A DNA stretch of 39,238 nt from Deltaproteobacteria bacterium. GTDB taxonomy: Bacteria; Desulfobacterota; Desulfuromonadia; Geobacterales; Pseudopelobacteraceae. The position numbers and the translations under genes are program-made. The stretch covers positions 1 through 39,238 of the forward strand of contig JAFLLC010000230.1 in NCBI GenBank assembly GCA_019162745.1, in the 5' to 3' direction. Every line of letters begins with the position of its first letter. Position 1 is the stretch's first letter. The notes beneath the pieces are model-generated. The model saw nothing but the letters and a program-made list of their open reading frames with translations. It was not told where the DNA came from and made no database searches. Positions 10,837 to 25,105 of this stretch are shown here, piece by piece.

Positions 10837-12954
10837 ATGACAACCTTTAAACTTACCACAACCTACACCCCGCGTGGTGACCAGCCACAGGCAATCAAAG
10901 AACTGACTGAAGGAATCCTGCGCGGCGACCGCCACCAGACGCTGCTGGGGGTTACCGGATCCGGTAAAACGTTCACCGTTGCCAACGTCATCGCCCGTAC
11001 CGGTCGGCCCGCTCTGGTACTAGCGCCCAATAAAACGCTGGCGGCCCAGCTCTACGGTGAATTTAAGGAGCTTTTCCCAGATAATGCCGTCGAGTATTTT
11101 GTCTCCTACTACGATTATTACCAGCCGGAAGCGTACATCCCGACCAGTGACACCTTCATTGAAAAAGATTCCGCCATTAACGACGAGATCGACAAGATGC
11201 GCCACTCCGCCACACGCAGTCTCCTGACGCGGCGGGACGTTATCATCGTTGCCTCGGTTTCCTGCATCTACGGCATCGGCTCACCTTCGGCGTATCAGGC
11301 GATGCACATATTTTTCCATCAGGGGGAGGAGGTTGGCCGCGACGAACTGCTCAAGAAGCTGATCGAGATTCAGTACGAACGGAACGACATGGATTTCCAT
11401 CGCGGCACGTTCCGGGTGAGAGGGGATGTGATCGAGATTTTCCCCGCTTACGACAGTGACCGGGCGCTGCGGATCGAATTTTTTGGCGACGAGGTGGAGG
11501 CTATCAGCGAAATTGATCCGCTCCGCGGGATCGTGCTGCAAAAACTATCGAAGTGCTCCATCTATCCAGCTTCGCATTATGTCTCCACCCGCGAAACGCT
11601 GGAGCGCGCGGTGGGGCAGATCCGGGTCGATCTGACGGAACGGATCAGTTATTTCCGCAGTCAAAACATGCTTCTGGAGGAACAGCGCCTCGAGCAGCGC
11701 ACTCTCTATGACATCGAAATGATGGAGGAGATGGGGTTTTGTCACGGTATCGAAAATTATTCACGCTACTTCGACGGCCGGCAGACGGGTGAAGCCCCTT
11801 ATACGCTGATCGATTACTTCCCGGATGACTTCGTGCTGTTTGTGGACGAGTCGCATATCACAATACCGCAGACCGGCGCCATGTACCGGGGGGACCGCTC
11901 GCGCAAGGAGACGCTGGTCAATTACGGCTTTCGCCTGCCGGCGGCGCTTGATAACCGCCCGCTCAATTTTCAGGAGTTCCAGGCCCGCATCCGGCAGGTG
12001 GTCTATGTCTCTGCGACTCCGGCCGATTATGAGCTTGAAGCGAGCGGCGGTGTGTTTGTCGAGCAGGTCATCCGGCCGACCGGACTGGTTGATCCGGTTA
12101 TCGAGGTGCGGCCGGTAACGGCGGGAAAGCAAATCCCCCTAAATCCCCCTTTCTCAAAGGGGGACTTGACTTCTTCTCTCGTAGAAATGGAGAGATTATC
12201 TCCCCCCTTTATGAAAGGGGGGTCGGGGGGGATTTCGGTTGGCCAGGTGGACGACCTCCTTCATGAAGTCCGCGAGGTCGTTGCCCGTGGCGAGCGGGTG
12301 CTGATAACGACACTGACCAAGCGGATGTCCGAAGAGCTGACCAACTATTACCGTGAGTTGGGGGTGCGGATAAAATATCTCCATTCTGATATCGTCACCA
12401 TCGAGCGGATGCAGATCATCCGTGACCTGCGCTTGGGGGAATTCGACGTGCTGGTCGGGATCAACCTGCTGCGGGAAGGGCTGGATCTGCCGGAGGTTTC
12501 TCTGGTCGCCATTCTTGATGCCGACAAGGAGGGTTTTCTCCGTTCGCAGCGGTCACTCATCCAGACCTGCGGCCGCGCCGCCCGCAATATCAATGGCCGG
12601 GTGCTGATGTACGGCGACAGCGTGACCCGCTCCATGCAGGCGTGTATCGATGAAACCGGGCGCCGCCGGATCAGGCAGCTGGCCTACAATGAAGAGTACG
12701 GCATCACCCCTGAAACGGTTAAGAAAGGGCTGCGCAGCATTCTGGAGTCGATTGAGGAGAAGGATTATGTCACACAGCCGACCGGAGTAGGCGAGACTGG
12801 TGAGGAATATATCGCACCAAAAGAGATCCCTAAGCTGGTAAAGAAGCTGCGCAAGGAGATGCTGGCGGCGGCAAAAGATTTGAACTTCGAGAAGGCGGCC
12901 GGGTTGCGTGACCGGGTGAAAAAACTGGAAGAGAGGGAGCTGGCGTTGCGTTAA
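10837..12954 (+). CDS. uvrB: Excinuclease ABC subunit UvrB with in-frame repeat-derived insertion
   Basis: UvrB is the damage-verifying helicase-like subunit of nucleotide excision repair, working with UvrA and UvrC. The Walker A motif GVTGSGKT (38-45), the beta-hairpin region around [12 protein letters not shown] (about 92-103), VDESH and [10 protein letters not shown] are present. So are [41 protein letters not shown] and QTCGRAARN, and the C-terminal UVR motif [22 protein letters not shown]. The length of 705 exceeds the usual 660-675. The excess is about 40 residues between EVRPVT and GQVDDLL (about residues 429-468), encoded by a palindromic repeat (see 12131-12235). All later motifs stay in frame, so the gene looks functional. 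The Shine-Dalgarno sequence is weak. Confidence 0.97.
12131..12235 (+). repeat. Double-palindrome repeat element inserted in frame in uvrB
   Basis: The 105-bp segment starts with AAATCCCCCT and ends with GGGGGGATTT, an inverted pair. Inside are two perfect hairpins: CCCCCTTT-CTC-AAAGGGGG (12145-12163) and C6TTT-ATG-AAAG6 (12202-12222). The length is exactly 35 codons and the uvrB frame has no stop, so it is translated as [11 protein letters not shown]...[14 protein letters not shown]. The same architecture, with an identical second hairpin, recurs at 25023-25100 outside any gene. That shows it is a dispersed element rather than native uvrB sequence. Confidence 0.92.
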
Positions 12955-25002: not shown

Positions 25003-25022
25003 AGTCCCTCAGTCTCTAAGGC

Positions 25023-25100
25023 AAATCCCCCTCAATCCCCCTTTCATAAAGGGGGAGGCTTACATTCCCCCCTTTATGAAAGGGGGGCCAGGGGGGATTT
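25023..25100. repeat. Double-palindrome repeat element between kinase and regulator genes
   Basis: This 78-bp element is bounded by inverted AAATCCCCCT and AGGGGGGATTT. It contains two perfect hairpins: CCCCCTTT-CAT-AAAGGGGG (25037-25055) and C6TTT-ATG-AAAG6 (25067-25087). The second hairpin is identical to the one inside uvrB at 12202-12222. It fills most of the gap between the histidine kinase and regulator genes. In the mRNA it should fold strongly and could affect translation or stability of the downstream regulator message. Confidence 0.9.
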
Positions 25101-25105
25101 CCTTT

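Follow-up and report, generated by a model that had tools for sequence, protein, structure and literature searches.

Palindromic elements of several families come and go, in frame, at one linker of UvrB

The linker that joins EVRP to QVDDLL in UvrB undergoes serial turnover among the bacteria surveyed here: insertions come and go, and they stem from several families of palindromic repeat. The four families tested, A to D, are multicopy in their carrier genomes, with the exception of G018, whose linker is labelled C and whose genome has no C match. The site looks like a recurrent landing place for palindromes, not a single accident. We consider it probable that these inserts are selfish, non-autonomous palindromes of the REPIN or MITE kind, which are tolerated in permissive disordered linkers and of which several families arrive and leave at a few sites. 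A single UvrB site repeatedly occupied by different families, with footprints, is something that we did not find described in the open-access literature.

The window, that is, the whole 39,238-nt stretch of DNA that was analysed, carries uvrB at 10837..12954 (all coordinates are on the forward strand), an intact frame of 705 aa that harbours a family A element at 12131..12235. A preliminary description of this DNA had claimed a two-hairpin palindrome with inverted ends, and the arms fall exactly on the span that it gave: they are inverted, 33 nt each (12131-12163 and 12203-12235) and 82% complementary. Both hairpins have 3-nt loops. Hairpin 1 (12145..12163) is CCCCCTTT-CTC-AAAGGGGG and reads PPFSKGD; hairpin 2 (12202..12222) is CCCCCCTTT-ATG-AAAGGGGGG and reads PPFMKGG. 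The left terminus (12125..12140), (A)GCAAATCCCCCT, is a variant of the GGCAAATCCCCC end found at other copies with unrelated flanks, and the right terminus (12223..12240) is GGGGGGGATTTCGG, whose GGGGGGGATTTCCGT form is what G028 and G068 retain where the site has been vacated. At 105 nt, the element amounts to 35 codons with zero stops inside the uvrB ORF. The intact ORF bears out the earlier statements that these codons are in frame and that the flanking UvrB motifs are preserved, and the inserted segment is presumably translated. RNA folding of 12122-12243 gave -60.8 kcal/mol versus -45.1 ± 4.1 for 200 shuffled sequences (z = -3.85), a prediction that beats all 200. A second family A copy lies at 25018..25105, outside any long spanning frame (the longest stop-free frame across it has 135 codons). 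Its arms are 90% and 94% identical to those in uvrB and its inter-arm spacing is 12 nt versus 39. The claim that the same element recurs in non-coding DNA at 25.0 kb thus holds at the level of the family, but the middles of the two copies differ.

Family A is abundant in its own genome (G000; 4.50 Mb in 237 contigs). Hairpins of the form CCCCCTTT-n-AAAGGGGG occur 34 times and the reversed pattern 0 times, so their number is above chance; a blastn search with the element returned 51 matches, the two strands of one palindrome being counted apart. When the loop was fixed at 3 nt, at least one hairpin was present in 51 of the 76 genomes of the taxonomic family and the reversed pattern in one of the 76. 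Copies with unrelated flanks have common ends of the type GGCAAATCCCCC...GGGGGATTTGCC, which are therefore part of the element. Under the criterion used for the B and C host census below, two of 22 hairpin clusters are in frame, in uvrB and in the gene for MurG, an essential enzyme. At the MurG locus (L011:649-2154, on G000:C22), in-frame A-like and B-like repeat peptides stand directly before VFGGSQGAHAIN, apparently in an interdomain linker. A plasmid search yielded one short match, in an Acinetobacter plasmid.

Comparison of homologues shows how foreign the stretch is. The variable linker of the window's UvrB (12115..12243) comprises residues 427-469, 43 residues flanked by EVRP and QVDDLL. 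Eighty distant UvrBs were fetched and, 10 being unparsed, all 70 readable ones have three residues between EVRP and QVDD. Since the stretch is missing in 70 of 70, a conserved UvrB domain or linker motif is ruled out; the protein-level conservation in many UvrBs that would speak against a repeat was found in 0 of 70, in agreement with the initial reading. Among order-level outgroups, 7 of 11 also have three residues and the remaining four have 14, 14, 17 and 21. A gain of about 40 residues had been proposed, which stands against distant UvrBs (43 versus 3) but shrinks to 34 against close relatives, where the linker is mostly nine residues long.

Nor is the linker empty in those relatives. Of the 76 family genomes searched, 66 linkers were parsed by script, two (G086 and G096) were read by eye and eight were unreadable; 25 of the 68 readable linkers have 17-62 residues and 43 have 3-13. 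Such a hotspot, occupied by different families and often vacated, lay beyond the reach of the preliminary description. Linkers of at least 17 residues occur in 14 of 37 readable UvrBs of the genus (39 genomes) and in 53 of 117 readable sequences among the 120 closest database proteins, and no long linker that could be read in a family UvrB breaks the reading frame. The window's UvrB is 100% identical to P0001 and 96-97% identical to P0002 and P0003, which are both JGI-listed and have equal linker length. Two unusual proteins were encountered: the UvrB of G096 (L185) has 41 linker residues in which no palindromic peptide is obvious, and AVDDLL replaces GQVDDLL; P0124 (794 aa, on a contig of 3460 bases) is an ABC transporter that runs on in frame, across a B repeat, into UvrB's C-terminal half, either an assembly chimera or a product of repeat-mediated recombination.

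In an AlphaFold2 model of the window's UvrB, built from 37 sequences and with a mean pLDDT of 82.2, residues 429-465 stay below a pLDDT of 50 and separate a strand at 421-425 from a helix at 468-483; other low-pLDDT stretches are 632-658 and 679-685. The nearest UvrB chains in the PDB align up to residue 427/428 and restart at 429, which positions the insert exactly between aligned blocks. This alignment gap and the low pLDDT corroborate the proposed location in a linker between helicase domains, which we take to be the boundary of domain 1a and domain 3. A disordered loop at a helicase-domain boundary, as modelled, fits with tolerance, and the insert may be nearly neutral for UvrB.

Family labels at the linker were assigned by eye. 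Family A (...PPFMKGG) is found in G000, G059, G079, G078 and G060; family B (PLPNPPLEGEG...LPLQGGGREGDG) in G032 and G058, contig G058:C21 ending within the repeat; family C (PLPNPPPLGEG...GGGELERG) in G023, G008 and G012 and, by eye, in G067 and, decayed, in G018; and family D (SPLPNGEG...ERVAEGRVRG) in G030, G017 and G062. Further insert types are E (G014 and G069), F, H and K (G063), plus the two odd linkers of G086 and G096. With both strands of one palindrome listed separately, genome-wide matches to B number 22 and 27 in its carriers G032 and G058 and 12 and 32 in G011 and G021; those to C number 37, 9, 43, 9 and 0 in G023, G008, G012, G067 and G018; and those to D number 59, 9 and 39 in G030, G017 and G062. 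Family D appears mostly intergenic in the 30 loci read, except for three UvrBs and a few others. The 62-residue linker of the G062 UvrB (L183) apparently consists of a D element with a C-like one inside. A distinct repeat of the SDKSD/SDLSDLSE type was seen in the UvrB of G063 (L182), in P0097 and in UvrA of G008 and G010.

The occupants change over short distances on the tree. In a quick maximum-likelihood tree of 79 UvrBs, computed with the linkers removed, the 11 labels require 23 changes (mean of shuffles 26.5; 0 of 200 shuffles needed so few) and the filled and empty states 21 (mean of shuffles 22.5; 134 of 500 needed so few). Filled versus empty is thus distributed nearly at random, and at least 10 changes are forced by well supported branches. 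The window's own genome (A) clusters with G027 (empty), and one supported clade contains G030 (D), G023 and G008 (C) and G031 (empty). At least 60% of the rows have a residue in 665 of the 674 columns of the linker-free alignment, which leaves UvrB without another insertion site of such size. The empty sites of G028 and G068 have the form GACGGC-GGGGGGGATTTCCGT-GGCCAG-like, and because GGGGGGGATTTCCGT represents the final bases of filled sites, they are read as vacated. Comparison of filled and empty uvrB sites revealed no clean target-site duplication, and the outer junctions vary between families.

Other proteins carry such repeats as well. The count of hosts drew on almost every match to B or C in eight carrier genomes (G058:C123 was left out and L331 had no cluster), with queries taken from uvrB copies; a place was called in frame if the frame had at least 180 codons, with at least 40 on either side of the element. 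The census comprised 108 distinct places, 37 of them in frame: five in uvrB, 25 in 17 named protein families, and seven that were dropped (L231, L296 and L322 without a family; L251 unscanned; L250, L293 and L346 with the element preceding the matched domain). Recurrent hosts, at one site each, are HypF and Pol I (three species each) and RNase R and Mfd (two each). HpnN is hit in two species at an equal profile position by our own arithmetic, and the UvrA copies of the census, from two species, differ in site. Single hosts are CobB, ThiL, an AMP-binding ligase, a hybrid histidine kinase, a FabA-like protein, HsdR, NuoL, a PabB fusion, PcrA/UvrD, MurB and a TPR protein. Seven of the 25 named places are partial copies of less than 50 nt (L306, L310, L323, L329, L340, L341 and L350), PcrA/UvrD included; the PcrA/UvrD assignment scored 906.3, slightly below its cut-off of 911.2, and L341 falls below every NCBIfam cut-off. 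Searches with the A and B insert peptides, their reach limited by a length filter and a word requirement, returned UvrBs and the UvrB-containing P0124 and so did not widen the set of hosts.

Length variation within the genus tells a similar story for UvrA and Pol I. Full-length UvrA spans lie 21-144 nt above the median in 11 of 33 genomes and Pol I spans take 17 values from 2724 to 2793 nt (n = 34), whereas all 37 full-length matches to AlaS, the sole control protein, measure exactly 2562 nt, without insertions. Linkers could be read in 32 of 33 UvrAs and 17 of 34 PolAs, the PolA inserts being judged by eye. Among the UvrA linkers, those of G011, G031, G003 and G032 contain composites that end in GTAG on either side, that of G025 one GTAG palindrome, those of G030 and G027 a D element, that of G021 a B element and those of G008 and G010 the SDKSD type; B- or C-like peptides occupy the Pol I linker of G032, G020, G023, G012, G030, G008 and G002. 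UvrB, UvrA and Pol I are therefore alike in that different families occupy the same linkers. In the UvrA loci L290, L291, L382, L396, L404, L466 and L468, the inserts in the linker that precedes SEKLAC are GTAG-ended REP composites or B or D elements, and the UvrA of G032 is also hit at a second site, by a B element.

Excision-repair genes are apparently over-represented among the hosts. Mfd, Pol I, UvrA and PcrA/UvrD, which act in or assist excision repair, make up 4 of the 17 host families other than UvrB and 8 of the 25 places; without the seven short copies, excision-repair proteins are 3 of 10 host families. If such genes are assumed to make up 0.43% of the genome, the Poisson probability is 1.1e-6 (strict set 1.3e-5), and with a broad replication and repair share of 3.3% it is 0.0026 (strict 0.0047). 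Both shares are our own estimates, the orthologue places are not independent, the queries derive from uvrB, and the category was picked after the data were seen, though it was in print earlier. The variation of UvrA and Pol I spans against the invariant AlaS supports the bias independently. Its candidate causes are permissive linkers in long multidomain proteins, transposition timed with DNA damage, or selection on repair. We regard as rather unlikely the stronger proposition that excision-repair genes (UvrB, UvrA, Pol I, Mfd and possibly UvrD) are preferred homes with fixed linker sites, where many unrelated repeats arrive and depart in frame and this traffic either tunes repair capacity or preserves a record of transposition bursts at times of damage. 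Were it true, the mechanism of the preference would act in several phyla, since a 2013 survey, in the parts consulted, saw an equal bias elsewhere (PMC3733652).

The course of events that we favour would begin with a non-autonomous palindromic element being copied into uvrB by some enzyme supplied elsewhere, and its mobility through transposition is a likely reading of the dispersed copies. The element would persist because its length and frame keep the ORF open and its 35 codons land in a disordered linker; insertions that break frame or fold would be purged, and those in linkers would persist, decay, be deleted or be replaced. Different families would reach the same few linkers because few sites in conserved proteins tolerate such cargo. 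Tolerance alone does not explain the excision-repair share of hosts. Neither the 11 Y1 transposase loci of the window's own genome nor a 4-kb interval flanked by two A copies yielded a mobilising enzyme. At all 11 Y1 loci, A, B, C, D and GTAG motifs are absent within about 1.5 kb on either side or to the contig end, which leaves a Y1 transposase unsupported as the mover of family A and, with it, the REP-RAYT link. The 4-kb interval, on contig C102, held no obvious transposase by eye. At one of the Y1 loci (L160, on G000:C138), the reading frame is interrupted by one TGA.

Several other explanations deserve weight. The C, F and H inserts of G023, G008, G010, G024 and G021 start with the A-type GGCAAATC and that of G008 terminates in the A-type GGATTTCCGT, while for most C copies elsewhere the match starts at query position 12 or beyond and so omits the GGC. 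These starts are suggestive of replacement within an older A copy, to judge from the sequences, although empty sites share the bare GGCAAA, which makes the argument depend on the longer GGCAAATC. Taken further, they could mean that family A was inserted once, ancestrally, and then overwritten through recombination between C-rich arms, with few true insertions; the repeat-located joins in P0124 and at the G058 contig end would suit this. We hold it to be a minority possibility, as A ends are absent from the D inserts of G030 and G062, the E inserts of G014 and G069 and the K insert of G063, and the site is empty in many close relatives. Mis-assembly of metagenome bins at repeats would account for P0124, if a chimera, and for contig G058:C21 ending inside a repeat, and the genomes are indeed drafts. 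Such an artefact is nonetheless very improbable as a general explanation: frame is preserved in all readable family UvrBs with a long linker, the identical insertion stands in P0001 on a contig of 101,814 bases and recurs in the 96-97% identical P0002 and P0003, and large contigs also carry insertions (e.g. G078:C3, beyond 3.85 Mb).

The repair bias invites two further readings, both of which we judge improbable, and to about the same degree. Insertions, or their gain and loss, could alter repair, a hypomorphic or tunable excision repair being kept for its mutator advantage. The 8 of 25 named in-frame B and C copies outside uvrB that lie in Mfd, Pol I, UvrA or PcrA/UvrD, the long UvrA spans in 11 of 33 genomes and the equal bias in other phyla, for which the consulted parts of PMC3733652 propose mutators, are all in keeping with this. 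Yet HypF, RNase R and HpnN likewise have recurrent sites, the other in-frame A copy of the genome sits in MurG, and the insertions are found in apparent linkers, not in catalytic motifs. Alternatively, a preference for target site or timing could be at work, for example if the elements transpose when DNA is damaged and then enter repair genes that are induced, single-stranded or heavily transcribed. This would match the excess of excision-repair genes and the different families in identical linkers of UvrB, UvrA and Pol I, but the outer junctions vary by family with no shared target motif established, and non-repair genes are hit too. Selfish palindromes tolerated in permissive linkers thus remain our preferred account. 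The one UvrB site offers a natural series across dozens of related species, with empty, filled, nested, decayed and vacated states and several families, which the parallel sites in UvrA, Pol I and Mfd extend. The series permits direct tests of neutral passengers against altered repair, of the rate of gain and loss and of the identity of the mover.

In-frame palindromes in proteins are already known from Rickettsia, and their predilection for repair genes was remarked on, but left unexplained, in 2013. Rickettsia palindromic elements are multicopy, about 100-150 bp long and in frame within unrelated protein genes (Ogata 2000, 2002, as summarized in the consulted parts of the review PMC10969869). 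The suggested resemblance of the uvrB element to them holds as an analogy drawn from descriptions, not sequence: family A is a multicopy palindrome of similar size that has hit more than one protein gene in frame (UvrB and MurG). The elements described here belong to another bacterial group, share one protein site among several families and turn over among close relatives. A Correia element at Neisseria gonorrhoeae uvrB is likewise a small inverted repeat tied to this gene but, as that review's consulted text has it, provides a promoter outside the coding frame (PMC10969869). Closer in phylogeny are the multicopy nucleotide sequences of Geobacter metallireducens, some within genes and interpreted as regulatory; uvrB has 0 occurrences in the main text of that paper (PMC2700814).

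Family A resembles MITEs in having terminal inverted repeats and no coding capacity of its own, and REPs and REPINs in consisting of two short palindromes in inverted orientation. It differs from RAYT-associated elements in its outer ends, which in the copies compared are GGCAAATC and GATTTGC-like without GTAG, and in that 0 of 11 Y1_Tnp loci in its own genome are flanked by the same repeat. The 2013 survey, as far as its consulted parts go, described intragenic GTAG/CGTC REP dimers in frame, many of them in replication and genome repair genes; its hosts include excinuclease ABC proteins, UvrD and Pol I, R. conorii uvrB and other uvrA genes are listed, chance was called hard to accept, and a mutator speculation was offered (PMC3733652). 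The GTAG-both-ends composites of four UvrAs here (G011, G031, G003 and G032) are like those dimers, whereas families A to D lack the GTAG tag, and the consulted parts of the survey contain no mention of Geobacter. They report REPs at about one site only in recB of two Xanthomonas species, the sites differing elsewhere (PMC3733652). One-site recurrence, an exception there, is the rule for UvrB here.
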